DNA of 64,000 nucleotides from contig NC_088325.1 of NCBI RefSeq assembly GCF_910592395.1, positions 6,231,501-6,295,500 on the forward strand, given 5' to 3'. Position 1 is the stretch's first letter; each line of letters begins with the position of its first letter. Positions 1-47,592 of this stretch are shown here, piece by piece. A program made the position numbers and the translations under genes. The DNA is from Lineus longissimus. Its lineage: Eukaryota > Nemertea > Pilidiophora > Heteronemertea > Lineidae. The notes under the pieces are model-generated. The model was not told the DNA's origin. It saw nothing but the letters and a program-made list of their open reading frames with translations, and ran no database searches.

Positions 1-352
1 AGGCAAGATTACATAACTCAGACACCTTCTTTTTTGTGTCTCTCAAATTAGCACAGTCATCAATGAGGAATAATGTGTTAGAACCAGCAAAGGTCAGAGT
101 AGCAAACTGAAGCACAAGGTCCAAATTACTGGCCACAGCTTCGGGATTAACTATGTAGACGTTCTTGTCTTGGTAAATCCATTTCCTTTCATATGTCTTA
201 TTGTTGAAATATGTTGGACAGAAAATGACTATGTTCTGGAACTTGTGCCGATACTCCTTTTCTAAGAGGTCAAGGGCAAAATATGTCTTACCACAATTGG
301 TAACACCAGAAATTAACATATTGTGTGGCTCGTAAATAAATACTTCACTCAT
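1..352 (-). CDS. Polinton packaging ATPase (FtsK/HerA type), 3' part cut by window edge
   Basis: Reading the minus strand from the ATG at 352-350 gives an open frame of 117 codons to the window edge. It has a Walker A motif (GVTNCGKT) near residues 16-23 and a Walker B motif (hydrophobic LFLIDD) near residue 97. This matches the genome-packaging ATPases of Polintons and related viruses, which would pump DNA into a capsid. The start is supported by TAAATG at the initiation site. The gene is divergent from the integrase, with only four bases between the two start codons. The C-terminal part, including the remaining sensor and arginine-finger regions, is outside the window. Confidence 0.85.
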   Translation of the reverse strand, partial: MSEVFIYEPHNMLISGVTNCGKTYFALDLLEKEYRHKFQNIVIFCPTYFNNKTYERKWIYQDKNVYIVNPEAVASNLDLVLQFATLTFAGSNTLFLIDDCANLRDTKKKVSELCNLA

Positions 353-359
353 TTAAATG
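350..359. promoter_or_regulatory. Palindromic divergent start site shared by ATPase and integrase
   Basis: The ten bases CATTTAAATG form a perfect palindrome. It contains the start codon of the ATPase on the minus strand and of the integrase on the plus strand, so each gene begins with TAAATG. The two transcription units must overlap at their 5' ends or initiate almost on the start codons. TAAAT(G) is the core of poxvirus late promoters; its use here is inferred. Confidence 0.5.
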
Positions 360-1508
360 AATGTAAAGGATGACACACAGCAGTATCTAAGGGATTTGTA
401 CTACAACCCCGAGAGTCCCGTGGCTTACAGTTCTTTGAGTAAAATCTGGAAACAGGTCAAGGTAGATATGACTTCGTCACGAGAGCAGAGCTCAGGAAAA
501 CTTATTAAACAAAAAGAAGTGAAAGAATTTCTAGAAACACTACCAACTCACCAACTACACAAACCGGCCATTAAGAAATTCACCTTCAGGAAGACAATGG
601 TATCGTACATCGATCAACAGTGGCAAGCTGATCTGGTTGACATGCAGAAATTCGAGAGTAAGAATCGAGCTATGCTCTCAGGACAAAGTCCGAATAAGGG
701 TTTCAGATTCATTTTAACAGTCATAGATCTATTTAGTCGTTTTTCTTGGGCTCTAGCAGTTAAGAGTAAGAGGGGAGAAGAAATCAGAGATGCATTTAAA
801 GTGATATTTGAGGAAGCAAAACCAACGAAAATCCAGTTTGATGACGGTAAAGAATTTTACAACAAACACTTCAAGGAACTCTTAACAGAAAATGACATAG
901 AATGGTTCTCCACAAAATCTGATAAGAAGGCAGCAGTAGTAGAGAGATTCAATAGAACCCTTAAAGAAAAAATGTGGCGTTATTTCACCGCTAAGGAGAC
1001 TGACAAGTGGATTGACGTTCTGGATGACCTGGTCAGTGGCTACAACAACACATTTCACTCATCAGTAGGTATGAAACCTGTAGATGCCAGAAAGATGGAA
1101 AACGAAGGAACAGTGTGGTACAATCTTAACGGTCTTCACCTCAAAGAGACATTTGGTGATCCAAAGTACAAAGTAGGTGACAGTGAAAGAATTTCAAAAT
1201 ACAAGTCCATTTTCGGTAAAGGTTACATGCCCAACTACACTGAGGAGGTGTTCCAAATCAAACAGATCATCTTTACTCACCCTATCGTCTACAAGCTTGA
1301 GGATTACCACAAAGAAGAAATTCAAGGATATTTCTATGAAGAGGAATTGAGCTATGTTCCTAATCCTGACCAGCTAGAGTACAAGATCGAGAAAATCCTA
1401 AGGTACAAGACCAGTAAAGGCAAGAAATACGGATTAGTGAAGTGGAACGGTTACAGTGATAAGTTCAATGAATGGTTACCAGTTTCTGATATCAAATCAT
1501 TGAAATGA
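357..1508 (+). CDS. Polinton integrase with chromodomain
   Basis: The 383-residue protein is a DDE transposase of the retroviral integrase superfamily that would insert the element into the host genome. The RNase H-like core carries D92 (in QADLVDM), D162 (in FDDGKEF) and E196 (in VVERFNRTLK), giving a spacing of about 33 residues between the second and third catalytic residues. A chromodomain lies at about residues 341-383 (YKIEKIL, VKWNGY, EWLP) and could target insertion to modified histones. Two copies of the 30-nt double-hairpin repeat are translated within it. One is at residues 38-46. The other is at residues 104-113, between the first and second beta strands of the core, a loop that tolerates variation. 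The frame is otherwise intact. Confidence 0.93.
   Translation: MNVKDDTQQYLRDLYYNPESPVAYSSLSKIWKQVKVDMTSSREQSSGKLIKQKEVKEFLETLPTHQLHKPAIKKFTFRKTMVSYIDQQWQADLVDMQKFESKNRAMLSGQSPNKGFRFILTVIDLFSRFSWALAVKSKRGEEIRDAFKVIFEEAKPTKIQFDDGKEFYNKHFKELLTENDIEWFSTKSDKKAAVVERFNRTLKEKMWRYFTAKETDKWIDVLDDLVSGYNNTFHSSVGMKPVDARKMENEGTVWYNLNGLHLKETFGDPKYKVGDSERISKYKSIFGKGYMPNYTEEVFQIKQIIFTHPIVYKLEDYHKEEIQGYFYEEELSYVPNPDQLEYKIEKILRYKTSKGKKYGLVKWNGYSDKFNEWLPVSDIKSLK
469..493 (-). repeat. Double-hairpin 30-nt repeat, copy 1 (in integrase)
   Basis: On the plus strand: stem TGAC/GTCA around TTC, spacer CGA, stem GAGC/GCTC around AGA. It is antisense to the gene compared with copy 2 and is translated as MTSSREQSS. The TGAC/GTCA stem differs from the common GGAC/GTCC yet remains paired. 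Confidence 0.75.
665..693 (+). repeat. Double-hairpin 30-nt repeat, copy 2 (in integrase core)
   Basis: Consensus copy: stem GAGC/GCTC around TAT, spacer TCA, stem GGAC/GTCC around AAA, bounded by TC and GA. It is translated as RAMLSGQSPN between two core beta strands. Confidence 0.9.
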
Positions 1509-1597
1509 AATAAAGTCTCTAAAGTGACTTAAGTCACAAGAACAAGTTCGAAAAAACGTAATTTAAAAAAAAAATGTCCTACTAAATAAAGAAAGAA

Positions 1598-2737
1598 ATG
1601 GAGGGAGCAATATTTGATAATCAAAATGGTATGATGAATCAGAATAATATGATGAATCATGATAATATGATGAATCATGATAATATGATGAATCAAAATA
1701 TTCAGAAGTTTTTGTATTATTTGCATCAAAATAATATGTTAAATCAAAATATGATAAATCAGATTATGTTAAATCAAAATATGATAAATCAGTTTATCTT
1801 AAATCAGATTATGTTAAATCAAAACATGGAAAATCAAAACATGGAAAATCAAAACATGGAAAATCAGAATAATATGATGAATCAAAACATGGAAAATCAA
1901 CCTACAATTTATTGTGTTAAGTGCTGTGAAAAGAAACCTGAAATTAATTTTGAAAAGAACAGGCGTAATAAACTACTTGATTACTGTAAAGAATGTGGTT
2001 CAAGTAAAATCAAGGGATGTAATAAATGTTATGAAATTAAATTACTAAGTGATGGTGAATTTGGTAAAAACGGAAATAGAGGTAACTGCAGATCATGTTT
2101 TAATTCATATTACAAAAAGGATTACCTTGACCAAAATGGTAATAGAGACAGACACAAAATTAGAGTTGGACTAAACCGCATTTCTAAGGGAGAGTGTACC
2201 GGTAATTCCTCATTTAATCTAGGATGTACAGACAGTTTCTTCCATCAGTGGTTAGAGTACCAGAGGAGTCTATCTCCAATAGGACAAAGTCCCGAGAACA
2301 GAGTTCGAATAGAAGAAGAGTTGGATCATGTCTTACCAATCAAGGAATTCAAAGATAAACCTGAACTGTGCTTTGCTTGGTTTAACATGAGACCAATGGA
2401 AAAGACAGAAAACAGACAGAAGAGTGCTAAAGTAGACTACACACTATTTAAGGATCAATTGGATAGGTCAATGGATTTCATGGTAAAGATGAGAAGTGAA
2501 AACTGGTTTGTCTTTCGAGACCAGGATGTAATACCAGATTGGAAAATAGTGATATCACAGCATTTCGGGGATTATCTTCGTGATGAAAATATGATTCTTC
2601 TTGATAGATTATCGAATTTAAATAATAACATGAGAATGAACCAGAACATTAACATATGTAGTCAGACAGAAATCATAAACGAGATGATTAAGTTGAATAA
2701 TAGACTTGAAAGAAATTTACTCTTTGCAGTGAATTGA
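1598..2737 (+). CDS. Zinc-finger HNH-type endonuclease with Asn/Met-rich N-terminus
   Basis: This 379-residue protein has three parts. Residues about 5-105 are low-complexity repeats of Asn, Gln and Met, encoded by a degenerate AATCAAAATATG-like repeat. Then follow cysteine pairs typical of zinc binding (CVKCCEKKP, YCKECG, CNKCY, CRSCF). The C-terminal half has an HNH-like signature: GCTDSFFHQWLEYQ, ELDHVLPIKEF, then NMRPMEKTENRQKS. This matches the small HNH nucleases of large DNA viruses and phages, so DNA cleavage is likely, though the target is unknown. Copy 3 of the double-hairpin repeat is translated as part of the loop just before ELDHV. It is preceded by the integrase and followed by two small genes on the same strand. 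Confidence 0.65.
   Translation: MEGAIFDNQNGMMNQNNMMNHDNMMNHDNMMNQNIQKFLYYLHQNNMLNQNMINQIMLNQNMINQFILNQIMLNQNMENQNMENQNMENQNNMMNQNMENQPTIYCVKCCEKKPEINFEKNRRNKLLDYCKECGSSKIKGCNKCYEIKLLSDGEFGKNGNRGNCRSCFNSYYKKDYLDQNGNRDRHKIRVGLNRISKGECTGNSSFNLGCTDSFFHQWLEYQRSLSPIGQSPENRVRIEEELDHVLPIKEFKDKPELCFAWFNMRPMEKTENRQKSAKVDYTLFKDQLDRSMDFMVKMRSENWFVFRDQDVIPDWKIVISQHFGDYLRDENMILLDRLSNLNNNMRMNQNINICSQTEIINEMIKLNNRLERNLLFAVN
2280..2308 (+). repeat. Double-hairpin repeat, copy 3 (variant stems, in HNH gene)
   Basis: Stem GGAC/GTCC around AAA, spacer CGA, stem GAAC/GTTC around AGA. Both stems are perfect although the second differs from the consensus. It encodes IGQSPENRV immediately upstream of the HNH histidine motif. 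Confidence 0.75.
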
Positions 2738-2756
2738 TTTTATTTTACTTAATTAA

Positions 2757-3008
2757 ATGAATAGAACTTGGGGTTACACAAAACGACCACGTAATTGGAA
2801 AGAAAGATTAGAACGATTTCATAGAGAATTAGAGGCAGAAGTAGAGTCAAAGTTGGAGCCTGGTCCCGAAAAACCTTTAAAACATGCTGGGCCTGTTGGG
2901 TCAGAAAAACCTTTAAAATTTAATGTACTTCAAAAACCTGTAGTGTCTGCAAGATCAACACTAAACACTAGAAATGACAGAACAACTGATTCTAGTTATT
3001 CCCACTAA
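2757..3008 (+). CDS. Small basic Polinton protein, function unknown
   Basis: An 83-residue product starting at TAAATG, 19 bases after the HNH gene. It is rich in Lys, Arg and Glu and contains the duplicated segment PEKPLK/SEKPLK. No hydrophobic segment or cysteine motif is present. A short basic protein in this setting could bind nucleic acid, as virion core proteins do, but nothing in the sequence proves it. It ends four bases before the next gene, which also starts with TAAATG. Confidence 0.6.
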   Translation: MNRTWGYTKRPRNWKERLERFHRELEAEVESKLEPGPEKPLKHAGPVGSEKPLKFNVLQKPVVSARSTLNTRNDRTTDSSYSH

Positions 3009-3012
3009 TTAA

Positions 3013-3672
3013 ATGAATGGAGACAACAAGGTTTATCTAGATTTAAGTAATTTAAACTCTGAAAGTCAATTAAACTATGAAAGGTCTGAAAAGCATACAG
3101 AAAGTAACCCTCAGGCTTTCAGACTACAACAAATATGTGATGTTAAGAGTTTCTTAGAAAGAGAGATTGAATTTAGAAGAAATATATTTTCAAAGTACAA
3201 AAAAGCATTTAGCGTAATTACTGGCATTAGCCACTTCCTTAATTTAACTAGCGTAGCAGCCGGATCTGTTGGTGTTTCCGCTCTAGCTGGTGTCATCACG
3301 GCACCGATAGGCTTAGCTTTGGGTGGCGTAACAATAGGTAGTGCCATTATTTCATCAGCCTTAGGCTGGGTGAAAAAGAATATTCTAAGGAAAATTGAAA
3401 AGCATGAGAATATCAGAATGTTGGCAATTTCAAAACTGAACACAATCAATGATTTGGTTAGTAAAGCCTTAACCGATTCTCACATATCTACAGATGAGTT
3501 TACTTTGATTCTCAAGGAGAAGGAGAAATACATTTCGATGAAAAATGCCATTAGGAAAAAACAAAGGGAGGCAAGTTCAGCTGTTGATGTAGAGTCTTTA
3601 AAGAAGACTTTTTTAGAAGAAGGAAAAAAACTAGCACAGACAGAGATGCTAGAAAAACTAAAAGTTCAGTAA
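3013..3672 (+). CDS. Conserved Polinton protein with paired hydrophobic segments
   Basis: This 219-residue protein starts at TAAATG. The middle (about residues 70-120) is a Gly/Ala-rich hydrophobic hairpin (VAAGSVGVSALAGVITAPIG, then IGSAIISSALGWV) flanked by amphipathic, Lys/Glu-rich helices that should form coiled coils. From memory, proteins of this type recur in animal Polinton-like elements, but no function is established. Membrane insertion or virion membrane association is my inference. At codons 204-206 there is a run of seven A (3624-3630) in slippery phase. A -1 shift there would open an 86-codon extension ending at 3890 (see findings). Confidence 0.75.
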   Translation: MNGDNKVYLDLSNLNSESQLNYERSEKHTESNPQAFRLQQICDVKSFLEREIEFRRNIFSKYKKAFSVITGISHFLNLTSVAAGSVGVSALAGVITAPIGLALGGVTIGSAIISSALGWVKKNILRKIEKHENIRMLAISKLNTINDLVSKALTDSHISTDEFTLILKEKEKYISMKNAIRKKQREASSAVDVESLKKTFLEEGKKLAQTEMLEKLKVQ

Positions 3673-3684
3673 ATCAAACAGGAC

Positions 3685-3773
3685 TCGAGCTATGCTCTCA
3701 AGACGAAGTCCGACTAGGACAAGGTCCCGAGAACAAAGTTCGACTCGAGCTATGCTCTCAAGACGAAGTCGGA
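3685..3773 (+). repeat. Tandem cluster of three double-hairpin repeats (copies 4-6)
   Basis: Copies begin at 3685, 3715 and 3745, an exact 30-base period. Copies 4 and 6 have the GAGC/GCTC first stem and an AGAC second arm with one mismatch. Copy 5 has the GGAC/GTCC plus GAAC/GTTC combination. The cluster lies after the stop of the 219-residue gene, but one plus frame stays open through all three copies. Confidence 0.85.
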
Positions 3774-3890
3774 CTAAATAGTCCTAATCCTAATGTGGTG
3801 TATCACTATCACTATTATCATTTCTTTGGTGTTAGGGATGAATTTCACCAAGTAGCACTACCATCAGCACCACCCTATTCATTAGTTTAA

Positions 3891-3919
3891 TCGAGCTATG
3901 CTCTCAGGACAAAGTCCGA
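3891..3919 (+). repeat. Double-hairpin repeat, copy 7
   Basis: Consensus copy (GAGC/GCTC around TAT, TCA, GGAC/GTCC around AAA) located 17 bases beyond the stop codon of the DNA polymerase gene on the opposite strand. It sits between convergent genes. Confidence 0.9.
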
Positions 3920-3935
3920 ATAATGATTTTGCAAC

Positions 3936-6900
3936 TCAAGCGAAGTTTGAATTGCTGTAATCTATGTAGCCTTCATAATACATTCCAAATGGTAAGGTGC
4001 TTATTCCATCTTCAAGTATGAACCTCTTGTCATCAAAAGGACTGAGGCTTTTTTTGTCAACTTCTTCCAAATAGATTTGGTGTTTATCTGATCTTAAGTG
4101 TCTCATCTTGTGGTAAAATGACCTACTCTTTTCAAGACAATCAACATAGTCATCAAATGAGATATTTCTCCTTACTACATTCTTGGCAATACCCTTCAAT
4201 TTCTTAGAATCGTAATCTTTTGTCCTGTAAGCGTACATCTTACTTCTCAGGGCAATGAATTCAGTCATCTCTACTCCTCCTAGCTCATCCTTAAAGTAGC
4301 CTGGTACCTTCTTTTTACTGGTATCATAGAGTGTATGATCTTTTGGATAATTACTGAAATCAAAATAGTGTCTCAACTCCTTTAAGTCTTTAGTTAAGTC
4401 ATCAGTATTAATGTTAACTACGAAAGAATCTGTATCTAGATACAGTAGTTCAATATTTTTCTCACCAAAATATGGTTGAAGAACTTCATAATAGAACTCA
4501 TACATTAATAATTTAGACAATTCAAGTACGGCAGCTCCTATGTAGATTGGTTTGTTGAATTTCATTGATGTTTTCCTCATGCTAATAGCAGCATTATGTT
4601 CGTCAAATACGCATATCGATGAAAACCTGGGATTGGCCATTACATTCCTGGCTCTCTCCCCGTCCGATACCAATTCAATTTCAACCCTGTTCCTTACATT
4701 CTCACAAGTCTTTCCGTAGAACGCATTATTCATGAGCTTAAAATAGTCTTTCTCAAAATCAGTCTTAGAATCCATACGTCTTTTAGTGTTAAAATCAATG
4801 TATGGTGCTAACCACTTTGATTGTTTAAAGCTTATCACTGAATGAACCCTCTTAAGTACCATTCCGTGCTTTAGGTAAAACTGTAGCATTCTGTAATGCA
4901 CTATGTAATTAGTTTTATCCTTTTGTGTTAGTATTAGTTTCTCTACATTTGATCTTTTATCATCACCCAGTAACTCTTTCTGGTAAGGACTTAATTCATC
5001 ATCTTCAATAAAGAGAGATTCAGGACAGAATGGAAAGTTCCTTGACTTAAATTTAATATTTCCTGGATACTCAAAATCAACCTCTAAGAAGTAGCCTACT
5101 TCACTATCACTTGGAATTGCCATAATCTGCTCTTTACTGATAACATTCATGTTAAGTCGGACTTTGTCCTGAGAGCATAGCTCGAGTGGATCAATATCTA
5201 TCATTTCAAAACTACCATAGGGTTGAGGTTCCATCATGGACCAGCCGTAGAGATTATTTGCGTCTACGTAGAGTAGTTTGTGGTGTTCATCTGCCTTGAC
5301 ATGTCTTGTTCCCATAACACCCGAAATTCCACCTCGTATTGCTTTCTCAAAAGTAAGTAAGATGTTGGTATCAGTCAGTAGTTCTAGGTTTATTCCTGTG
5401 TACTTCAAACCAGCTTGCCAGGTTAGGCCTGGTGCCGAGTAACAGTGACATGGATCTATCTGAAAGTAGTTCAAATTGACATCCCTGAATTTCTCAAATA
5501 AATCAGCTAGAAGGATCACATCAGTTTTGAGGTAGAGGTCAATGAACTCACCGTGATTCCTGATCTTGAAATGATCCCATATTACCTTAGCTTCATCATA
5601 GGCAGAATCAGGTGCCATTTCATTTTTCAATTCGTCAAAAAACATAGACTTTTCTAGGTAAGTAACATTGTAGCTTTCATGTGATGTGTAAAAAGAGTAA
5701 GGTACTGAACCCTTCTTCCTCACTAGCTTAAAGTCAGTGGTATTTGGGAACAGCTGTCTGGTAATTTTAAAATCATCATCCAACATTGATTTGGTTATGT
5801 TGTCTAAACTGGACTGCAGGAATCTGTACGAGTCCAAAAACCTGAAACAACCGAACTGAAATGAAATGTATTCCTCTGATGTTTTGGCAAGTATTTTCAG
5901 TTTCTTGTACTTCGGTAGCTTAGTCATTAATTCTTTAATAAATAAGTGAGAATCGTAATTACTGAGATTGTGAAAAAATACTGTAACAAACATAGCTTTC
6001 TTTTCATTCAAATTACACGAGTTGTGAGCAGCACCTCGATATCTACCACAGTAGTGATCATGATCCTTGACCTTGTCATATCCCAAAGGTTGATTACAAT
6101 AGTAACAATGTGTTTCTAATTGATATTTATGCCAGTCTTCATCTGTCATTGTTAGAGGAAAGTTACAGTTCAATAAATTAGAGAATTGTTCTTCCATCCT
6201 GATTAACCAATTACAGAACACATCTACAACATCAGCACCCCTGTGAGACACATACTGGCTACTGTAAAGGTGTGTGTAGTCTGAGTGAACATAAACACCA
6301 ACAGCTGATGCATTTTGTTTAAAAAGTGTTTTAGTGGTAACAGTGGTATCTGTCTGAGTTGTGTCGGACTTCGTCCTGAGAGCAGAGCTCGAGTTATCAT
6401 TGACTGTTGTGCTTATTGATTCAAAATCAGCATAGATCACAAACGGAACTCTATTTTTGAATGAGTGTTTTTCAAATTTAATTTGTGACCATTTACTGTT
6501 AGGTGGAGGCAAAGTAATCTTACAGTAATCGTGTTCTCCACATTTCTTTTTATGCTTATCTAGTGTTGACTTCCTGTAAAAGTAATTCATGCATCTCCTG
6601 CAAAGATACACTCTATGAGCTAGTGTCCTGAAGAAAAGATTGATGTCTCTTATGTACATGAAATGGTCCTTGAAATACAGCAGATCGATGACATCATCAT
6701 CATCATAATTCTTGGACAGGTAGAGAGGTTCTAGTTTTGCCTCACAGGTGCTCTTAGCCCATTCGTTCTCTAACTTGAACACATTAATCTTGAGATTATT
6801 ATCACTCTCTATCTTAGGGATATCCTTTTGAATACATACAGGAAATGATTTGATTTTGATATCAGTAGTTTTCGAACTCTGTTCTCGTGACGAAGTCATT

Positions 6901-7700
6901 TCTAGCATATCGGTAGTAATATTTAATGTACTCTCGAGCTCTGCTCTCAGGACAAAGGCCGTCTCTGGATTTTCTTTCAGATATTTAGCGGCCAATAAAG
7001 ACCAGAGAAAACATTTATTGTCATTTGATTCCACATTTATTACTGCTTTTGTTTTAAATGGTAATTTAGTGTAATGACCACCTTTACACCTCTTGTAAGA
7101 ACAGATGGTCATGTTACAAGACTCTATTTTATTTAAAGTAAGTCCAGAACCTTGAAAGTACCTTTCCTCAATCTGTGTCTTAATGTAGTTTAACTGGTTG
7201 GTTATGGCATAAATTGCCTGGTTCCTTGAAATTATGCTTTCCATTGGGGACTGTATGGGGTGTGTTACACTTTCACCCTGACGATCAATGCTCTGCTCTT
7301 CGACCAAAGGTCGACCAAACTGAGCAAATACTGATATGCTAATTTTGTGATGGTAATCATTGAGTTGAAATAATACCTCCTCTAATTTATCTCTGTATTC
7401 ACACACTTGTTTAGCTTCTCTGTCAATCTTCAAACTAATGGTGACTACAGGCTTTCCAAATTGTTTTACTATTTCTATTCCACTCACTTTCTTTATGCCA
7501 TCTAGCTCATTTTCCTCAAATGCAAGTTTCTTATCCATAGTTTTAGGGATCAGTGATGGGGCTCGGGGTTGAGCAATAGGGACATAATCCGGGTTTAATT
7601 TACTTAAGTGACCTTTGGTTCTCCTGTGAATGGCCATATTATTGTAGGATATGTACTTGTCACATGTAGTGCAAAGTATTTTCTGATTCTTATCAGTCAT
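3936..7700 (-). CDS. Protein-primed family B DNA polymerase (Polinton pPolB)
   Basis: The polymerase has 1254 residues from the ATG at 7700; the frame is open 11 codons further upstream but only with a TTG. It starts with a C2H2 finger (CTTCDKYISYNNMAIHRRTKGH). A segment with NDNKCFLWSLLAAKYL and a CX2C finger lies upstream of the exonuclease domain. Exo I is YADFES (near 421), Exo II is HNLSNYDSHLF and Exo III is YLKTDVILLADLF. Between them is an endonuclease VII-like zinc motif (CYYC, DHDHYCGRYRGAAHNSCN). Palm motifs are DANNLYGW (about 813), KLMNNAFYGKT (about 986) and YLDTDS (about 1088). It would replicate the element from a terminal protein. Five copies of the double-hairpin repeat are translated inside it without breaking the frame, all in poorly conserved loops. 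Confidence 0.95.
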   Translation of the reverse strand: MTDKNQKILCTTCDKYISYNNMAIHRRTKGHLSKLNPDYVPIAQPRAPSLIPKTMDKKLAFEENELDGIKKVSGIEIVKQFGKPVVTISLKIDREAKQVCEYRDKLEEVLFQLNDYHHKISISVFAQFGRPLVEEQSIDRQGESVTHPIQSPMESIISRNQAIYAITNQLNYIKTQIEERYFQGSGLTLNKIESCNMTICSYKRCKGGHYTKLPFKTKAVINVESNDNKCFLWSLLAAKYLKENPETAFVLRAELESTLNITTDMLEMTSSREQSSKTTDIKIKSFPVCIQKDIPKIESDNNLKINVFKLENEWAKSTCEAKLEPLYLSKNYDDDDVIDLLYFKDHFMYIRDINLFFRTLAHRVYLCRRCMNYFYRKSTLDKHKKKCGEHDYCKITLPPPNSKWSQIKFEKHSFKNRVPFVIYADFESISTTVNDNSSSALRTKSDTTQTDTTVTTKTLFKQNASAVGVYVHSDYTHLYSSQYVSHRGADVVDVFCNWLIRMEEQFSNLLNCNFPLTMTDEDWHKYQLETHCYYCNQPLGYDKVKDHDHYCGRYRGAAHNSCNLNEKKAMFVTVFFHNLSNYDSHLFIKELMTKLPKYKKLKILAKTSEEYISFQFGCFRFLDSYRFLQSSLDNITKSMLDDDFKITRQLFPNTTDFKLVRKKGSVPYSFYTSHESYNVTYLEKSMFFDELKNEMAPDSAYDEAKVIWDHFKIRNHGEFIDLYLKTDVILLADLFEKFRDVNLNYFQIDPCHCYSAPGLTWQAGLKYTGINLELLTDTNILLTFEKAIRGGISGVMGTRHVKADEHHKLLYVDANNLYGWSMMEPQPYGSFEMIDIDPLELCSQDKVRLNMNVISKEQIMAIPSDSEVGYFLEVDFEYPGNIKFKSRNFPFCPESLFIEDDELSPYQKELLGDDKRSNVEKLILTQKDKTNYIVHYRMLQFYLKHGMVLKRVHSVISFKQSKWLAPYIDFNTKRRMDSKTDFEKDYFKLMNNAFYGKTCENVRNRVEIELVSDGERARNVMANPRFSSICVFDEHNAAISMRKTSMKFNKPIYIGAAVLELSKLLMYEFYYEVLQPYFGEKNIELLYLDTDSFVVNINTDDLTKDLKELRHYFDFSNYPKDHTLYDTSKKKVPGYFKDELGGVEMTEFIALRSKMYAYRTKDYDSKKLKGIAKNVVRRNISFDDYVDCLEKSRSFYHKMRHLRSDKHQIYLEEVDKKSLSPFDDKRFILEDGISTLPFGMYYEGYIDYSNSNFA
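5157..5185 (-). repeat. Double-hairpin repeat, copy 8 (in polymerase palm)
   Basis: Consensus stems, same sense as the gene, read as LELCSQDKVR at about residues 839-848. It lies in the variable loop between motif A and the next conserved strand. Confidence 0.9.
6364..6392 (-). repeat. Double-hairpin repeat, copy 9 (in polymerase exonuclease domain)
   Basis: GAGC/GCTC with a TCT loop and GGAC/GTCC with a GAA loop, read in a different frame as SSSALRTKSD at about residues 437-446, shortly after Exo I. Confidence 0.9.
6872..6900 (+). repeat. Double-hairpin repeat, copy 10 (antisense in polymerase)
   Basis: Stem GAAC/GTTC around TCT, spacer TCG, stem TGAC/GTCA around GAA. Both stems differ from consensus and both pair perfectly. 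It is translated from the opposite strand as MTSSREQSS, the same peptide as copy 1 in the integrase. Confidence 0.8.
6934..6962 (+). repeat. Double-hairpin repeat, copy 11 (antisense in polymerase)
   Basis: GAGC/GCTC around TCT, TCA, GGAC with a mismatched GGCC arm. Translated antisense as AFVLRAELES. This frame is open only because the first loop is TCT; the common TAT loop would give a TAG here. Confidence 0.8.
7286..7314 (+). repeat. Degenerate double-hairpin repeat, copy 12
   Basis: The second hairpin is intact but altered (GACC/GGTC around AAA). The first stem is decayed (ATGC/GCTC). Translated antisense in the polymerase N-terminal region as RPLVEEQSI. Confidence 0.45.
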
Positions 7701-7756
7701 TCTATTTATTAGATTAAAATTTATTAAATTCAATAAATCTCTTGAATTAAATAGAA

Positions 7757-8818
7757 ATGGACTTCATAATCAATGAACAAGAATGTAATGAAGCCAAATT
7801 TGAGTACTACTTAACAGACCAATTAGACATAAAATCCATTACTTTGAAATCGATAACCTTTTACAATTCATGGTGGACAGGTGATTTTCTACCAGAGGGA
7901 GTCAGGATTTTCTCATTTCTAGTCGAAATAACCAGAATTACAACAAATGAGCCCTTAGATAAACAATTATGGTGTATGGATGAATTTAGGACATTATTTG
8001 CTCCTGGACTTGAAACAGATACACTTGAAAAGGAAGTCATGAAAGTTTGCGAACGGTATTTGGAAAATGAATCTACCACAACTAAAGACACCATTACTCA
8101 ATACACATTTCCATACTCTCGACATTTTAGTTTAAGTGAGTTTTGTGAGGTATGGCAAAAATACATAAAAGAAATTGGAATTAGCCATGTGAAAATTTAC
8201 TGTGATAACAATAATTACATAACCCTTGAACTTACAGAGGATAAAGAGTACCCTCTGAAAGTATACAAGTTAGATAAAAATGAAAAAATCAAGATTGAGA
8301 GAAACACAGAAGGTTTTCAAATAAGAAAAACCATAAGAGAGGTGATAGAAAAACAGCTCACAGTGGTGAATGAGTGGTTTGGCTTTAAGCAAACTAAATT
8401 CACAAAGAAAGGAAAATACTACTCCACAAGACCACTCAACTTTTACAGGAAATATCTATTCCTGCAAGCTAATTTGGTTGACAAAGCTAAGACCCTCTAC
8501 AACAATAAACCATCTAACATTTTCTGCATCATACCTGTAGAAGATGGTGACCAAATAAAAATGCAGCGATACGAACCGAATTGTAAGAAAACGATAAATA
8601 AGTGTACTAATCACATAAAATTCGAAATCACTCATGAAAATGGTAAGCTAGTTAATTTCAGAGGAACAGAGGTTTCTTTAGAGTTAGGAATCGAGCTATG
8701 CTCTCAGGACGAAGTCCGAATAGAGTTAAACTCTCAGGACAAAGTCCGAATAGAGTTAAACTCTTGTAGTGAAGACAAGCAACTCGGACTCGAGCTCTGC
8801 TCTCAGGACGAAGTCTGA
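7757..8818 (+). CDS. Polinton protein of unknown function with repeat-encoded C-terminal tail
   Basis: A 353-residue product divergent from the DNA polymerase, 56 bases between start codons. Both genes have TAAATAGA close upstream of ATG instead of TAAATG. Residues 1-310 have no recognised domain. The segment around residues 235-310 (SNIFCIIPVEDG, then FEITHENGKLVNFRGTEVSLEL) looks beta-rich and resembles, from memory, the C-terminal strand pattern of putative minor virion proteins in animal Polintons; that is weak. Residues 312-353 are made entirely of four head-to-tail double-hairpin repeats (IELCSQDEVR and variants). The stop TGA is created by a C-to-T change in the last copy. Confidence 0.65.
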   Translation: MDFIINEQECNEAKFEYYLTDQLDIKSITLKSITFYNSWWTGDFLPEGVRIFSFLVEITRITTNEPLDKQLWCMDEFRTLFAPGLETDTLEKEVMKVCERYLENESTTTKDTITQYTFPYSRHFSLSEFCEVWQKYIKEIGISHVKIYCDNNNYITLELTEDKEYPLKVYKLDKNEKIKIERNTEGFQIRKTIREVIEKQLTVVNEWFGFKQTKFTKKGKYYSTRPLNFYRKYLFLQANLVDKAKTLYNNKPSNIFCIIPVEDGDQIKMQRYEPNCKKTINKCTNHIKFEITHENGKLVNFRGTEVSLELGIELCSQDEVRIELNSQDKVRIELNSCSEDKQLGLELCSQDEV

Positions 8819-8848
8819 CTAGGACAAAGTCCCGAGAACAAAGTTCGA
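8691..8848 (+). repeat. Cluster of five double-hairpin repeats (copies 13-17)
   Basis: Copies start at 8691, 8721, 8751, 8790 and 8820, mostly in 30-base steps. Copy 13 is consensus. Copy 14 has first stem GAGT/ACTC around TAA. Copy 15 keeps that stem but its second hairpin is decayed. Copy 16 has GAGC/GCTC and GGAC/GTCT. Copy 17 has GGAC/GTCC and GAAC/GTTC. Copies 13-16 form the C-terminus of the 353-residue protein. Confidence 0.88.
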
Positions 8849-8861
8849 CCACCTGATGAGA

Positions 8862-9383
8862 TCATTCCATTAAAGGAATAGTACATTTCTTCTCTTTAAC
8901 TACAGGTTTAACAAGAGGGTTAATTGACCCCTTCCTGAGTGATCCCTTCATGACTGCTTCATTCGGACTTTGTCCTGAGAGCATAGCTCGATTCAAGCCT
9001 GATCGCTGCTCTTTACTTACTTTTTTAGGAAGTTTCTTAAACATAATGAATGCTGCTAAAATAACGGCACCTAAACCTAGTACATAGACATAGGTATTAC
9101 TACTAGATTCACGCAGTGATACATCAGTATTTTGAGATTGTGGTTCTTCTTCCTCTACTTCTTCTTCCTCCTTTTCCACAACTCTGTTTTTTGGTGAGGA
9201 GTCCTGTACTTTAAATGTCGTCTTATCCTTTTTTATCCTCTTAAATTCCTTAGATCTTCTACCCAGTTCTCTAGACCATGCTAATTGTTTCTCTGATCGA
9301 GGTTTCTTAGACACTGAAACTTTAGTCGGACTTTGTCCTGAGAGCTTAGCTCGAGTAGTATCAGTTACAGTTTCAAGTTCCAT
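8862..9383 (-). CDS. Single-pass membrane protein of Polinton, function unknown
   Basis: This 173-residue protein starts at TAAATG. The N-terminal half is very basic (Lys/Arg), followed by an acidic run (VEKEEEEVEEEEP) and a clear transmembrane helix at about residues 99-118 (YVYVLGLGAVILAAFIMF). A Lys-rich C-terminal region follows. Two copies of the double-hairpin repeat are translated as RAKLSGQSPT (residues 11-20) and RAMLSGQSPN (132-141). A small membrane protein fits the idea of an enveloped or membrane-containing virion, which is inference only. Confidence 0.65.
   Translation of the reverse strand: MELETVTDTTRAKLSGQSPTKVSVSKKPRSEKQLAWSRELGRRSKEFKRIKKDKTTFKVQDSSPKNRVVEKEEEEVEEEEPQSQNTDVSLRESSSNTYVYVLGLGAVILAAFIMFKKLPKKVSKEQRSGLNRAMLSGQSPNEAVMKGSLRKGSINPLVKPVVKEKKCTIPLME
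8963..8991 (-). repeat. Double-hairpin repeat, copy 18
   Basis: Consensus stems with TAT and AAA loops in gene-sense orientation; encodes NRAMLSGQSPN. Confidence 0.9.
9326..9354 (-). repeat. Double-hairpin repeat, copy 19
   Basis: Consensus stems with a TAA first loop; encodes TRAKLSGQSPT near the N-terminus of the 173-residue protein. Confidence 0.9.
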
Positions 9384-9403
9384 TTATCTTGGCCGAATTT
9401 AAT

Positions 9404-9432
9404 TCGAACTATGTTCTCATAACCAGGTTAAT
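9404..9432 (+). repeat. Double-hairpin repeat, copy 20 (both stems altered, still paired)
   Basis: Stem GAAC/GTTC around TAT, spacer TCA, stem TAAC/GTTA around CAG. It lies in the 49-base gap between two genes. Both stems and one loop differ from consensus, but all eight base pairs are kept. Confidence 0.75.
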
Positions 9433-10281
9433 TTAGTCTTCTTTATCATCACTACCTGTGATATCTAGACTTTCATCTATTGGTTTGTCACATTCAGAGA
9501 CAGTCATATTTGGTGTATTCATATTTGATGCAGTCATACCCGATGTATTCATAGATGATTCCTCATGACAATGACCTAAAGTAATAAGTGTTGTTGAGGC
9601 AAGTGCAGTTAGTGCACCCATTCTCAAACTCAACCATCCAAGCCATTTATCCAACTCGTCAGTTATCAAATAATCATTTCTAAGATCATGATAAAGATTA
9701 TCTTCATCATCTATTGGTAATAACCACCTTGATAATTTAGTGTAAGCTTTAAGTACTGTCTTACCCAAAGAATCATTAAGTCTGGCAGCCATCTTTGTTT
9801 CATACATTCTATGGTGTTTTAAGATTTCTTTTTCAGTCGTATTATCTAAGTCATTAAAAGTTATTTGTTTATTAAGGAAATCCTTGCTTTTACCAGTTGC
9901 AACTAGAATCTCTAAGTCTTGTTTGGCTTTAAGGCCACTATCAGTCAAATAGTTCAAATTTTGTTGATTGCTACTTGAACCTTGTTGATTGCTAGTCGGA
10001 CTTTGTCCTGAGAGCGTAGCTCGAGTTGATCCTAGTTGGCAACTAGAATTGACTATTCCTTGACTAGGAGTAACTAAATTTGAACTATTCAACTGCTTGT
10101 TTGAAACTTGTTGATTTGTAGAACAGTTCTGTTGAAAATTAGTTCTGTTCTGTTGGTAACTACCAGTGTTCTGTTGGTAACTACCAGTGTTCTGAACTGG
10201 GTTTGGAATGATAACACCAATCTGTTTCATCTGTTGTTCAATAACTGCAGATGTCTGACTGTTCATTTGCTGATTATTCAT
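9433..10281 (-). CDS. Gln/Asn-rich Polinton protein, function unknown
   Basis: A 282-residue protein starting at TAAATG. The first 110 residues are rich in Gln, Asn and Ser with short repeats (NTGSYQQ twice). Residues about 110-250 are globular, with a helix-rich stretch and a moderately hydrophobic segment (LSLRMGALTALASTTLITLG). The C-terminus has short repeats (MNTSGMTASNMNTPNMT) and an acidic end. A double-hairpin copy encodes RATLSGQSPT at about residues 87-96, within the low-complexity part. No family is recognised. Confidence 0.6.
   Translation of the reverse strand: MNNQQMNSQTSAVIEQQMKQIGVIIPNPVQNTGSYQQNTGSYQQNRTNFQQNCSTNQQVSNKQLNSSNLVTPSQGIVNSSCQLGSTRATLSGQSPTSNQQGSSSNQQNLNYLTDSGLKAKQDLEILVATGKSKDFLNKQITFNDLDNTTEKEILKHHRMYETKMAARLNDSLGKTVLKAYTKLSRWLLPIDDEDNLYHDLRNDYLITDELDKWLGWLSLRMGALTALASTTLITLGHCHEESSMNTSGMTASNMNTPNMTVSECDKPIDESLDITGSDDKED
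9996..10024 (-). repeat. Double-hairpin repeat, copy 21
   Basis: Consensus stems with a TAC first loop; encodes TRATLSGQSPT. Confidence 0.9.
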
Positions 10282-10335
10282 TTAAAATTATGGAAAAATG
10301 ACTGTTAAGTGCAAAATGCTGTTTTCACAACTTTA

Positions 10336-11505
10336 TTACATCTTAACACTAGCTCGAGCTATGCTCTCAGGACGAAGTCGGGCTCGAGCTATGCTCTCAG
10401 GTTGAAGTCCGGCTGGTGTAAACTTAATACTACTGATGCAGTTATTGTCTCTACCTGTACTGGCACTCAGTAAAACGTCAAACTGCTTGTCAATATCCTG
10501 GTCATATTCCTTCTCAACCTTGTAATTCTGGAAGAAAATACTTTGAGTGAAATCATACCATAATCTCTCCAAATCATTTACTCGCTCCTTGTTGGTTAAA
10601 AAAGGTGTAAATATTACATAATCAATTTTCAGCGTTTTAAAGGCTTGGTGTAAAAATACCTTGTAGTTAATGGTGACCTTGACACCACAGTAATGCAGAA
10701 ATCTAAGGAAAGCATAGTACACTAGTCTAAGGTCAGTGATATTCTCATCGGTTAATTGCGGTTTATCAATTGCCCTGTTAATAAATTCAATGGCAAGAAA
10801 CCAATCATATTCCCCACAGTGAAATTTAAAAAGCATGGCTTCACCATGTAACCCTTGGTTACATAACTTAGAGGGGAGAGTGTTAATACCCATTTTTAGG
10901 GCTGACTGAAGAGTACTTTCATATCTCTGCTTACTAAGACATTTTCTGTGACTTGAAAAGTAGCACTGTAAATACCCTTCCACAAAGTCCTTTAAATACT
11001 TAACTGCCGATTTGGACAGCCGCCTCCATCCAAGTTTCCTTAGAATACTGTCAAAGTAACGTGTCTTGTTGTCAATATTGATCTCAAGAGTTTTAAAATC
11101 ATCATCGTAAGTAGTCGAATTGCAATTGGTGCAGAATTGATACTTCACAGTTTTAGCTGCGTACCTTGCTGAATTCAAGTTTTTTTGATACTCAAAAAGG
11201 GTCCACCTTTTACAATTACGGCAGAATTGGGCATTAGTGTTGATACTGACGTCATATTCTTTCATTCTTGGCAGGACTACTTTGTGTGTTTCAGTCAGAC
11301 TTCGTCTTGAGAGCATAGCTCGAGTAGGCTTATCAAATTTCCCACTGTCATAATTCTTGCTGTCATTTTCTTCACTAAAATTTCTAGTCGGACGCAGTCC
11401 TGAGAGCATAGCTCGATCCATAACCCTAGGACGAATGTATCCTTTAAGATTCTCATTGTTCCACTCACTAGAATAATAATCTTTAAATGATATGTATTTA
11501 TTCAT
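10336..11505 (-). CDS. Zinc-ribbon Polinton protein, possible transcription factor
   Basis: This 389-residue protein has two CX2C pairs at about residues 95-130 (FCRNCKRW and QFCTNC, 26 residues between pairs), a zinc-ribbon-like arrangement. A helical region of about 230 residues follows (WRRLSKSAVKYLKDFVEGYL, then CNQGLHGEAMLFKF). A zinc ribbon followed by a helical domain recalls TFIIB-like and viral late transcription factors, but I see no specific match and give this only as a possibility. Two repeat copies lie in the N-terminal linker (residues 31-40 and 62-71). Two more make up most of the last 25 residues, read antisense as LRPESIAR. The start lacks TAAATG. Confidence 0.6.
   Translation of the reverse strand: MNKYISFKDYYSSEWNNENLKGYIRPRVMDRAMLSGLRPTRNFSEENDSKNYDSGKFDKPTRAMLSRRSLTETHKVVLPRMKEYDVSINTNAQFCRNCKRWTLFEYQKNLNSARYAAKTVKYQFCTNCNSTTYDDDFKTLEINIDNKTRYFDSILRKLGWRRLSKSAVKYLKDFVEGYLQCYFSSHRKCLSKQRYESTLQSALKMGINTLPSKLCNQGLHGEAMLFKFHCGEYDWFLAIEFINRAIDKPQLTDENITDLRLVYYAFLRFLHYCGVKVTINYKVFLHQAFKTLKIDYVIFTPFLTNKERVNDLERLWYDFTQSIFFQNYKVEKEYDQDIDKQFDVLLSASTGRDNNCISSIKFTPAGLQPESIARARLRPESIARASVKM
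10354..10412 (+). repeat. Tandem pair of double-hairpin repeats (copies 22-23)
   Basis: Copies begin at 10,354 and 10,384, a 30-base step. Both have perfect GAGC/GCTC first stems. The second stems carry mismatches (GGAC/GTCG and GGTT/GTCC). They form the antisense-coded C-terminus of the zinc-ribbon protein. Confidence 0.85.
11295..11323 (-). repeat. Double-hairpin repeat, copy 24 (compensated stem)
   Basis: The second stem is AGAC/GTCT around GAA, both arms changed relative to GGAC/GTCC so pairing is kept. Encodes TRAMLSRRSLT. Confidence 0.85.
11388..11416 (-). repeat. Double-hairpin repeat, copy 25
   Basis: Consensus stems with TAT and TGC loops; encodes DRAMLSGLRPT in the N-terminal linker of the zinc-ribbon protein. 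Confidence 0.9.
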
Positions 11506-11552
11506 ATATACATGATAATTATTTTTTAAACATTGTTTTGATAGAAGTTCAC

Positions 11553-12755
11553 CTAAGACCTTTTATGTTTTTTTACTGTTTTACGTGATTTTAAGGCTTT
11601 AACACCCTCTATTAAACCATAGATTATGGAGCTTACAATAGCAATAACTGCTATGATCAGATGTTCAGCTAGAAAGCCAACAACTGCACCAATTGTTTTC
11701 AGGAGAAATGATACGATAGAACCGATGATTCCCGGTAAAGCCGCAGCTGATTTCTTGGCTAGTTCTTTTAGCCATTCAGCAAACTTCTTGAGACCTTCTT
11801 TTACTTTATCTGGTATTGATGGTTTTGGTCCTGGTCCAGGTTCTGGTGTAGGTCCAGGAGTTGGTTCTGGTCCTGGAGTTGGGTCTGGTCCTGGAGTTGG
11901 TTTTACAGATTTAGTTGCACCACTTAAAGCACTACTGATACTGAGACCTAGAGTTGTAAATGTCATTACAACAGCTGTTATTATGGCGCTAATAGTTACA
12001 CCATACGTCTTAAAAAGTAACTTTATTCTGTCCTTCAGAGGAATAGTTGAATCTGGTTTCTTTAGAACATCAACAATTAAACGTTTGATTCTTCTAGTTT
12101 GTGACTCCCTGTCATTGTCTAACCTCCATACCTTTGACTGTTCCTCATACAATTTGTCATTTAGTTCATCTATTTGCTTTTTCAACTCTCCTTTATCTTT
12201 AGTATCTTCTTCTACAGACTTTACATAGTCTCTTGTTAAATTATGAAGCTGATATTTTAATTCCTCTATTTGCATGTCCTTATCCATCTTTACTGCAGCT
12301 AGATCATCACCAGCCTGTTTTAACCCTCTAAGTTCTCTCAAGGCATATTCAGTAAAACCCAGTGTTTTAAGTTCATCATCATTAGAATCTATCAGTTTAT
12401 CTATTGGTTTGTTTGAACTGTTTACCTCATTAATTAATATGTCTGTTTGAGTGAATGCAGATTTAGGTTCCCTTACTGGTGGGTCAGGTGCAATCATACC
12501 TCTAATCATGTCAGCAAATCTAGCACCAAACTTATTCTTTAATGTGCCTTCAGAAAGGAATTTACCATCTGATTTAATTAAAGGAATGATAAAGGCATTC
12601 CCTCCATTAGGATTAGGAATTTTATTCATATTGTTCTTTTGTTGTTCTGTAAAGTTTGCTAATTCTCCTTTTGTAGGCAAGAAGTAAGGTTCCTCGTTGT
12701 GCAAATAAATACGTGGTGCTAGTTTACTTAGTTTGTTAGGGTCATATATTTCCAT
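11553..12755 (-). CDS. Coiled-coil, proline-rich, multi-pass membrane protein of Polinton
   Basis: The 400-residue protein starts at TAAATG. Residues 1-100 form a globular start (IYLHNEEPYFLPTKGEL). Residues about 130-225 are a Lys/Glu-rich coiled coil. A hydrophobic segment at about 250-275 (TISAIITAVVMTFTTLGLSI) is followed by a Pro-Gly repeat linker at about 285-310 (PGPDPTPGPEPTPGP). Then come a basic amphipathic stretch and two long hydrophobic segments at about 340-388, ending in a Lys/Arg tail. From memory, this architecture recurs in animal Polinton-like elements, without known function. It may be a virion membrane or fibre-like protein. No repeat copy lies in it or in any gene to its right. 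Confidence 0.7.
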   Translation of the reverse strand: MEIYDPNKLSKLAPRIYLHNEEPYFLPTKGELANFTEQQKNNMNKIPNPNGGNAFIIPLIKSDGKFLSEGTLKNKFGARFADMIRGMIAPDPPVREPKSAFTQTDILINEVNSSNKPIDKLIDSNDDELKTLGFTEYALRELRGLKQAGDDLAAVKMDKDMQIEELKYQLHNLTRDYVKSVEEDTKDKGELKKQIDELNDKLYEEQSKVWRLDNDRESQTRRIKRLIVDVLKKPDSTIPLKDRIKLLFKTYGVTISAIITAVVMTFTTLGLSISSALSGATKSVKPTPGPDPTPGPEPTPGPTPEPGPGPKPSIPDKVKEGLKKFAEWLKELAKKSAAALPGIIGSIVSFLLKTIGAVVGFLAEHLIIAVIAIVSSIIYGLIEGVKALKSRKTVKKHKRS

Positions 12756-13198
12756 TTACCACTTTTTTTCAATGCTGTATCAAGTTTATCCTCTTTATCA
12801 TCTAGAAATGACTTCTTCTCCTCTAGTTGCTTGTCAAAAACTCTTGGCCTTTCTGGTATACTTAATGAAGTTTCATCAGTAAGATTTTCACCTCCTGTGT
12901 TGTATGTTGTGCCTGGCCTTTCTGGAGGTATACTGAATGAAGTTTCATCAGTAAGATTTTCACCTCCTGTGTTGTATTTTGTGTCATCATCTTGCAACTT
13001 TTTATTAATACCAAAGATATCATCATAATTTTCACCTCCTGTGTTGTATGTTGTGTCATCATATCGAGGCTTTGGATTAATACCAAAGATATCAACATAA
13101 TCCTCAGGTTTGTAATCAGATTCGTAATCAGGATCGTAATCAGGATTGTAATGTGGATAGTAATCACTCATTTCATAATTTTCACCTCCTTCAGCCAT
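12728..13198 (-). CDS. Acidic repeat protein of Polinton
   Basis: A 156-residue product, 28 bases overlapping the next gene downstream. Rich in Tyr, Asp and Asn at the N-terminus (YNPDYDPDYESDYKPEDY), then built from degenerate repeats containing TYNTGGEN (three copies), IFGINxK (two copies) and LTDETSxSIPxERP (two copies). The repeated DNA suggests recent internal expansion. It is probably unstructured; the function is unknown. Its initiation site is TTATGG, not TAAATG. Confidence 0.6.
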   Translation of the reverse strand: MAEGGENYEMSDYYPHYNPDYDPDYESDYKPEDYVDIFGINPKPRYDDTTYNTGGENYDDIFGINKKLQDDDTKYNTGGENLTDETSFSIPPERPGTTYNTGGENLTDETSLSIPERPRVFDKQLEEKKSFLDDKEDKLDTALKKSGKWKYMTLTN

Positions 13199-13208
13199 AA
13201 TTACTTAT

Positions 13209-13559
13209 TTATCTAACCATAAAAACAATCAATGTACCAACAACTGAGTAAAGCATGAATTTAATTGTTTCATGAGTATCATCCTCCCTCTCAACTTTGG
13301 TATCAAGTTTAGTAGTAGTAGGAGTATTCTTTGAGGTTTCAGTTGTTTTTGGTGTATCAACATTACTCTTTGGTGTATGACTGGTCATTGATGTACCAAC
13401 ACTACTCTTAACTCTTATTTTCTTAGAACTATTTCCTTCCATCAGTGGTGGTGGTAAGGTCTTTTTGTGGTTAATGTCATTCTTACCGGGTTTAGCATTT
13501 TTTGGTGCTATTAAAATGTTATTATTGTAGTTATCCAGCTTACCAATAACGAGTACCAT
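13209..13559 (-). CDS. Polinton protein with C-terminal membrane anchor, start uncertain
   Basis: The frame is open from well upstream, but its first ATG is at 13,559, giving 116 residues. Starting at the GTG at 13,625 would give 138 residues and add a plausible beta-rich segment (VIAPGLYVIG). That GTG overlaps the TGA stop of the upstream gene in the +1 frame, and there is no in-frame ATG between. The C-terminus has a hydrophobic helix (FMLYSVVGTLIVFMV), so the product may be tail-anchored. The middle is Thr/Lys/Pro-rich. No family is recognised. Confidence 0.5.
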   Translation of the reverse strand: MVLVIGKLDNYNNNILIAPKNAKPGKNDINHKKTLPPPLMEGNSSKKIRVKSSVGTSMTSHTPKSNVDTPKTTETSKNTPTTTKLDTKVEREDDTHETIKFMLYSVVGTLIVFMVR

Positions 13560-13617
13560 ATTTGATCCTATGACATACAATCCTGGTGCTATTACATGAT
13601 CTAGTCTTGTATGAGTG

Positions 13618-14571: not shown

Positions 14572-14723
14572 TTAATTTACTTGAATTTTTTCCTTGAATT
14601 TTGGTTAATGAAGACAGTAAAATGCCATTTATTTTAATGGAATAACCCATTGAGCTCTAGTATTCCCTCACCCTTTCATTGACCATTTCATTGCGACGCT
14701 TCACTGGGAATCTCATGAATGAT

Positions 14724-14853
14724 AGAAAGTGTATATTGCGGTGGATGGTTCTTTGGGGGTTGTAGGCTAATTTGGGGCAAAAGACCTGTAAGGTCTTTTG
14801 TCAAAAGGGCCTAAAACATAACCTAGTTCCTAGCACCGCAATATACACTTTCT
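14724..14853. repeat. 130-bp foldback repeat, candidate Polinton end or small MITE
   Basis: A 20-base sequence at 14,724-14,743 (AGAAAGTGTATATTGCGGTG) is perfectly inverted at 14,834-14,853. A second hairpin inside has arms CAAAAGACC and GGTCTTTTG. The outer ends are AG and CT, as at Polinton termini. It may therefore be the element's terminal region, or an independent foldback MITE. Confidence 0.55.
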
Positions 14854-47562: not shown

Positions 47563-47592
47563 GAAGGGAGCAAGATCGAGACATCTCGCTTC

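Follow-up and report, generated by a model that had tools for sequence, protein, structure and literature searches.

A 27-nt double-hairpin repeat in a Polinton of Lineus longissimus as a likely selfish mini-element

The first 11.4 kb of a 64,000-nucleotide (nt) stretch of the Lineus longissimus genome (RefSeq assembly GCF_910592395.1, contig NC_088325.1, positions 6,231,501 to 6,295,500, forward strand; hereafter the window) raise the question of why one short double-hairpin sequence recurs many times within a single Polinton, a virus-like transposon, and mostly inside its genes. A preliminary description of this DNA had proposed a selfish mini-element, a replication or packaging signal or an RNA structure. 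The first of these finds support in the direct duplications that flank the repeat, the occurrence of naturally empty sites, units lying in tandem in either orientation, and a high turnover. The repeat is likely to be a selfish, non-autonomous mini-element that spreads by insertion at staggered ends, probably while the Polinton replicates.

The repeat unit was found to consist of a 27-nt core with two adjacent 4-bp hairpins, the core being a pseudo-palindrome of two inverted 13-nt halves, with 25 copies located between positions 468 and 11415. All 25 positions originally listed hold a copy or a decayed copy. Similarity searching recovered 24 of the 25 at no more than 12 mismatches in 30, the remaining one (8752) being degenerate. 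Three copies (6872, 7286 and 9404) lie at 10-12 mismatches, the same level as four chance-like matches outside the copy region (25080, 33147, 33449 and 53680; 11-12 mismatches). Of these weak copies, those with cores at 6873 and 9405 possess all 8 pairs and that at 7287 is supported by an empty allele. Perfect double hairpins (8/8 pairs) number 17 in positions 1-11500 of the window, with 0.28 expected (first-order Markov model; maximum of 2 in 50 runs), and 0 in positions 11500-64000, with 1.14 expected. With just the four chance-like matches beyond 11500, the earlier statement that none were seen elsewhere in the window was upheld. The copies are listed below with core coordinates, strand and the triplets to the left and right of the core.

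Copy 1: 468-494, minus strand, in the integrase gene (antisense); empty allele L022 indicates a 27-nt insert with no duplication
Copy 2: 666-692, plus strand, in the integrase gene; AAT/AAT; 13 empty and 17 filled of 30 loci
Copy 3: 2281-2307, minus strand, in an HNH-like gene; ATT/ATT; the homologue P0241 is 7 residues shorter there
Copy 4: 3686-3712, plus strand, in a three-unit array; ACT/ACT
Copy 5: 3716-3742, minus strand, inverted unit of the three-unit array; AGT/AGT
Copy 6: 3746-3772, plus strand, in the three-unit array; ACT/ACT
Copy 7: 3892-3918, plus strand, intergenic; AAT/AAT
Copy 8: 5158-5184, minus strand, in the family-B DNA polymerase (PolB) gene; ACT/ACT; related Polintons hold 0, 1 or 2 units
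Copy 9: 6365-6391, minus strand, in PolB; ACT/ACA; absent from aligned PolB relatives, three of which have other segments there
Copy 10: 6873-6899, plus strand, in PolB; TTT/TTC; all 8 pairs
Copy 11: 6935-6961, plus strand, in PolB; TCT/TCT; empty allele L072
Copy 12: 7287-7313, plus strand, in PolB; ATC/ACC; empty allele L071
Copy 13: 8692-8718, plus strand, in an array; AAT/AAT
Copy 14: 8722-8748, plus strand, in an array; AAT/AAT
Copy 15: 8752-8778, plus strand, degenerate
Copy 16: 8791-8817, plus strand; ACT/ACT
Copy 17: 8821-8847, minus strand; GGT/AGT
Copy 18: 8964-8990, minus strand; AAT/AAT; related Polintons hold 1 or 2 units
Copy 19: 9327-9353, minus strand; ACT/ACT; empty allele L057; four others with a second unit
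Copy 20: 9405-9431, plus strand, intergenic, diverged; ATT/TTT; all 8 pairs
Copy 21: 9997-10023, minus strand; ACT/ACT; empty allele L057
Copy 22: 10355-10381, plus strand, in an array; GCT/GCT; related Polintons hold 2 to 4 units
Copy 23: 10385-10411, plus strand, in an array; GCT/GCT
Copy 24: 11296-11322, minus strand; ACT/ACT; related Polintons hold 1 to 3 units
Copy 25: 11389-11415, minus strand; GAT/ACT

Identical 3-nt direct repeats (AAT, ACT, ATT, AGT, TCT or GCT) were found on either side of the core in 17 of the 25 copies, which identifies the repeat as an insertion; a 4-nt flanking repeat fits none of the 25. Among the 18 isolated copies, 12 have matching triplets, against a permutation mean of 3.2 and a maximum of 9 in 20,000, and the middle base alone agrees in 15, against 7.0 expected (p = 0.00015). 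Most triplets have the form A-N-T, which equals its own reverse complement. As the flanks match directly and not as complements, they represent a duplication rather than an extra stem pair. These flanks, the pseudo-palindromic core and the natural empty sites in related Polintons had not been seen in the preliminary description.

That description had suggested comparing orthologous Polinton copies with and without each insertion. Alignments were made of 30 integrase loci and three pieces of PolB, together with the 8.2-9.7 kb region in 18 of 20 pieces (L039 and L054 being left out) and 34 others out of 36 (without L097 and L106). Filled and empty alleles were identified at 14 sites, several of which depend on one or few empty alleles, and the net difference was exactly 30 nt at 12 of them. 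The triplet is exact at 7 of the 14, six of which also show the 30-nt insert (666, 5158, 6935, 9327, 9997 and 11463). At five further sites the insert is 30 nt and one of its flanking triplets reproduces the empty site, the second departing from it by a single base: 7263, 7287, 8923, an upstream site lying outside the window, and a nested site, where a different two-hairpin sequence is inserted within the copy at 468. At 2198 the insert is again 30 nt and the triplet ambiguous, the empty alleles themselves being variable. Sites that are empty in the window are as follows.

385-387: empty target ATC; L024, L025 and L037 (3 of 30 loci) hold a 34-nt insert here
2198-2200: empty target ACC in the HNH-like gene; 9 of 30 loci filled, 20 empty, one ambiguous
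7263-7265: empty target TGT, filled in L071
8923-8925: empty target ATT, filled in L046, L048 and L049 (3 of 18 covering rows)
11463-11465: empty target ACT; an insert is present in 6 related copies, and 5 are cleanly empty

Relatives of the integrase (among the matches listed) and of PolB that span the sites were found mostly to lack the segments, some aligned rows stopping short of them. This outcome favours an insertion over ordinary conserved protein sequence, a case that had been named as one that would refute a mobile repeat.

Within predicted open reading frames (ORFs), which cover 93% of positions 357-11505, 19 of the 25 copies (76%) were located, in both orientations and all codon phases; the earlier count had been at least fourteen. 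In the three variants tested, all three sense frames are open together with at least one antisense frame. Since 27 + 3 is divisible by three and at least four of the six frames are stop-free, a copy within a gene would lengthen the predicted protein by about 10 residues, and the 30-nt gain means that the reading frame is usually kept after insertion.

A search of the host genome with a strict pattern of the element returned 1,593 exact matches, against 0 for a reversed control. The 96 contig 1 matches among those listed all fall in Polinton clusters, partly as judged by position alone: 77 have an anchor, meaning a match to an integrase or a right end, no more than 16 kb away, which does not prove a location inside a Polinton, 9 lie in fetched Polinton pieces, and the remaining 10 sit between two fetched Polinton pieces. 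A rarer variant occupies 64 places, of which 37 are near an anchor, 3 are on contig 1, 4 are without a check and 20 were fetched, all 20 containing Polinton DNA outside masked elements, as do all 28 pieces fetched for such checks. Copies of the element were found on nuclear contigs of 13-29 Mb, in Polintons, and not at a mitochondrial location. A half-site search gave 32 places, from which 8 pieces were fetched, 6 of them with Polinton homology. Through matches to half-elements, more diverged Polintons with variants of the element were reached in the same genome (segments of two proteins being 33-75% alike), such as L134, whose variant has GTT/GTT flanks; L137 proved to be an unrelated tandem repeat. 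In this small test, no parental transposon sharing the element's ends was seen in the 8 fetched pieces. A host-wide background repeat, the other refuting case named in advance, does not describe these results, as the checked matches lie in Polintons with the sole exception of L133, where no Polinton flank was seen.

Two distant Polintons from IMG/VR (33-34% in PolB; 11.7 and 9.8 kb read) showed no excess of double hairpins: each has one, where 0.2 and 0.1 were expected, and neither of these resembles the element. Scans of viral contig and genome contig collections with the strict motif gave 0 matches each, a search of viral contigs for a related integrase gave no match, and of 114 pattern stretches from a second search none was confirmed. 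A direct peptide scan at up to 3 mismatches yielded 7 real matches against 8 shuffled and 4 reversed, the best (P0015) being the worm's own. The Polinton-type integrases P0034 and P0026 are 99% identical except for a 10-residue insert able to encode a double hairpin, a case that is suggestive only, since 397 of 3,000 random 15-residue segments can also encode one. As far as seen, the element belongs to this worm's Polinton lineage.

Turnover of the element was found to be high. Occupancy at seven scored positions differs in 20 of 29 pairs less than 1% diverged (3 of 6 pairs below 0.5% and 17 of 23 at 0.5-1%), the pairs sharing loci and so being non-independent. A replication or packaging signal is disfavoured by such polymorphism in presence and absence, as well as by positions that are not fixed. 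Copies occur in either orientation and often adjoin to form 30-nt arrays; no two of the 19 sequences aligned around 8692-8847 (18 pieces plus the window's own) are the same, some differing by substitutions alone. At site 666, both flank haplotypes were found with and without the copy, giving all four combinations. By inspection, L121, L122, L125, L127, L128 and L129 lack the DNA that separates the copy at 11296 from that at 11389, a loss of the kind that recombination between both copies would cause. Partial units also exist: of the 30 loci compared at the upstream site, 25 have a one-hairpin half-element, 4 the full element and 1 none, and half-elements of hybrid look were seen at 5158. Upstream of the integrase start in L009-L038 there is a 19-nt tandem array (TGATCGGACACAGTCCTGA) of 0 to several units, which apparently grew from one hairpin of the element. 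Separately, the diverged Polinton L059 (77%; G000:C1:12911700-12913100) was observed to contain six consecutive hairpins where the window has the copy at 468.

The identification of the carrier as a Polinton was substantiated by an integrase with rve and chromo domains, a family-B polymerase (DNA_pol_B_2) and the right end; the left end is outside the window, which begins within the Polinton.

357-1508, plus strand: Polinton integrase (rve and chromo), by domain matches
1598-2737, plus strand: HNH-like cysteine-rich protein, candidate mobiliser; HNH motif read by eye, one homologue
3936-7733, minus strand: PolB (DNA_pol_B_2), by domain match
14843-14853 (approximate): Polinton right end, where homology with 38 other copies stops

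In the 38 other copies the stops are spread over 14843-14867. The host genome (391 Mb) contains at least 107 Polinton integrases, 95 of these 107 without an internal stop, with frames of mostly 373, 383 or 393 amino acids (range 367-394). Other observations on the carrier and its surroundings were as follows. A host segment 96% identical to window positions 14854-20000 is found at G000:C19:6199617-6204791, about 41 kb upstream, and starts exactly at the Polinton end; a segmental duplication may thus mark the insertion point of the Polinton. Inverted integrases about 2 kb apart in L011 and L012 (G000:C10:7526382 and 7529672), identical across 2,004 aligned bases, are perhaps an inverted, truncated Polinton pair. 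Protein P0001, which bears the label Bartonella sp. CL29QHWL, shares 91% identity with the worm Polinton integrase, and the record looks like animal DNA within a bacterial assembly. The host part of the window holds a reverse transcriptase fragment (22190-23116) and a Bel-Pao-type retrotransposon (46348-51825; Peptidase_A17, DUF1759, DUF5641 and integrase).

With regard to mechanism, the occupancy differences would be mainly gains, made by an enzyme producing short staggered ends that acts on Polinton DNA during virus-like extrachromosomal replication. Staggered ends are suggested by the insert length and triplets, and Polinton replication or a Polinton enzyme by the confinement, which insertion during extrachromosomal replication would explain. 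The shape of the element also seems to matter, as two-hairpin sequences with different stems insert as well. Four sequences tested as single-stranded DNA were predicted to fold into just the two hairpins. Among 54 distinct cores (L009 left out), for which the choice took account of nothing but the ends, the spacer and the 5-prime halves of the stems, 94.7% of pairs are standard, against a shuffle maximum of 92.6%, and double-change cells in the stems number 18 against a shuffle mean of 5.5 and maximum of 11 (kinship ignored). An RNA role is disfavoured on sequence grounds, the copies lying in both orientations and all phases and a search of window positions 1-14853 against Rfam giving 0 matches up to E 1.

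A tentative and rather doubtful version of this mechanism is that of a 30-nt cassette with cohesive A-N-T ends, cut out or copied and then joined into staggered breaks. The work would be done by a nuclease that the Polinton encodes, possibly the HNH-like protein, which would recognise the two-hairpin shape and not the sequence. The HNH-like protein has a cysteine-rich part and a DH...P...N...NR motif, taken by eye as HNH-like. It gave no useful match in PDB, Pfam or NCBIfam, and a search reaching only relatives with common short words found a single homologue (P0241, 40%). An AlphaFold model from a two-row alignment had a mean predicted local distance difference test score of 38 and was not used. 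The gene is a candidate mobiliser because it is present and seemingly rare, nothing more. Were the cassette version true, the element would be a parasite of a virus-like element with a mode of transposition that uses no long end sequences, and animal viral genes would repeatedly acquire ten-residue inserts.

Several observations weigh against a selfish element inserted at staggered ends. At site 468 the insert is 27 nt without duplication (one empty allele, L022, in agreement with protein P0001), at site 385 an exact triplet accompanies a 34-nt insert (31 + 3), and L133 carries an element with GTT/GTT triplets and no detectable Polinton flank. The four combinations of flank and occupancy at 666 imply recombination, recurrence or loss, so that not every difference is a jump, and array size may also change by slippage or unequal recombination. 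Predicted folding is weak in the four sequences (-2.9 to -4.1 kcal/mol; z -1.6 to -0.2), with 12, 69, 24 and 43 of 200 shuffles folding at least equally well, and a double change of any kind occurs in 3 pairs, a figure that the shuffles also reach (mean 2.0, maximum 4). The flanks themselves are mixed. Among 91 distinct flank-core-flank combinations (cores with at least 7/8 pairs; L009, the window's own integrase region, left out), 43 have perfect triplets, 13 agree in the first two bases only and 35 mismatch within the first two. In all 13 of the two-of-three cases the left third base is T, so the duplication is possibly 2 bp, with T belonging to a 28-nt element, and a pure 3-bp duplication is weakened. 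Either a 28-nt element (T plus core) makes a 2-bp duplication at a T-preferring target, or a 3-bp duplication has one side sometimes rewritten. The deviating triplets at 7263 (GGT), 8923 (ACT, in element orientation) and the upstream site (ACT) all occur at other copies, a hint that cohesive 3-nt ends may be joined with mismatch repair rather than by plain transposase fill-in.

An unlikely alternative is replicative template switching, in which the polymerase stalls at or near a hairpin and jumps to a copy of the element through 1-nt microhomology (T on entry, A on return), falling back 3 nt upstream, with no dedicated enzyme. The A-N-T preference fits the bases flanking other copies, and confinement to a replicating virus-like genome, the hybrid-looking half-elements at 5158 and the six-hairpin array in L059 also fit. 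Variable fall-back distances would be expected, however, whereas 12 of the 14 sites show an insert of exactly 30 nt and no window copy has a 4-nt repeat. The inverted halves of the pseudo-palindromic core and the symmetric A-N-T target form would suit an ordinary minimal miniature inverted-repeat transposable element (MITE), moved by a host transposase with 2- or 3-bp duplications. This is distinctly unlikely: the checked copies lie in Polintons and not in host DNA, the half-site search with its 32 places, 8 fetched pieces and 6 Polinton-homologous ones disclosed no parental transposon, and the mismatched triplets at several sites sit badly with pure fill-in. On the MITE traits of terminal inverted repeats and a constant target duplication the picture is mixed, the core being pseudo-palindromic and the triplets exact at 7 of the 14 sites.

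A signal under selection in the Polinton (an origin, packaging, recombination or RNA element) could account for the compensatory stem changes and the many copies per Polinton. It would have to be reconciled, however, with the lack of fixed positions, the two orientations, presence or absence among closely related copies with open integrase frames, and the single unlike double hairpin in each of the two distant Polintons, and we regard it as highly improbable. Next to no weight can be given to a translational-bypass element that the ribosome would skip, as with mitochondrial byps. A hairpin insert inside genes with identical triplets on both sides recalls such elements, but the 30-nt gain preserves the frame, the frame is open through the element, copies lie in all codon phases and some are intergenic.

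The repeat gives many natural before/after pairs from more than 100 related Polintons in one genome, allowing insert length, target duplication, turnover and confinement to be measured directly. Virus-type proteins, polymerase and integrase included, can evidently absorb repeated ten-residue inserts with frames still open. A literature search, which left out most subscription journals, returned no account of this element among the entries listed, and nothing was found on Polintons of Lineus longissimus.

Most of the known mobile mini-elements with hairpins come from mitochondria and bacteria. Rickettsia palindromic elements are about 100-150 bp long, bacterial, and inserted in-frame into protein-coding genes; the likeness to them proposed earlier holds for the effect, in-frame insertion into genes, and fails for size and taxon, the worm element being a 27-nt core in an animal Polinton. 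Magnusiomyces mitochondrial byps possess hairpins and flanking triplets. They disrupt the frame and are skipped in translation, in contrast to the 30-nt worm insert, through which the predicted frame is open; part of the published account reports many such short inserts in protein genes, 81 in number (PMC5009743). The smallest class of Paramecium internal eliminated sequences measures 26-28 bp, with a short direct repeat at both sides and a location inside genes (excerpts of PMC3464196). As described there, these are TA-bounded, precisely excised and short of exonic lengths in multiples of 3, whereas the worm insert stays and has a length that can usually be divided by 3. In Pandoravirus salinus, the Submariner MITEs are non-autonomous and have multiplied inside a large DNA virus, with 10 of 30 copies in coding regions, according to sections of PMC4495683, which also describe their TA duplications and a transposon of the amoeba host that is related to them; the worm element has a 27-nt core and no parent was found.

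The nearest known kind is that of mitochondrial palindromic GC clusters and double-hairpin elements (DHEs), hairpin repeats whose presence or absence at corresponding sites is matched by the worm element. In shape, it is nearest to the DHEs of Allomyces and other fungal mitochondrial DNA, which have two hairpins per element and evidence of mobility. Allomyces DHEs are said in portions of PMC2800124 to have no flanking duplications; on that account, the two adjacent hairpins are common to both, whereas the worm element has perfect triplets in 17 of 25 copies. In behaviour, it is nearest to the yeast mitochondrial palindromic GC clusters, such as GC42, as far as these are portrayed in parts of PMC4478555, and it shares the short flanking direct repeats that are a trait of GC clusters and mitochondrial hairpin elements. 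GC clusters, however, are mitochondrial, mostly intergenic and GC-rich, while the worm element is found in a nuclear virus-like transposon, mostly in ORFs and usually as a 30-nt net insert.

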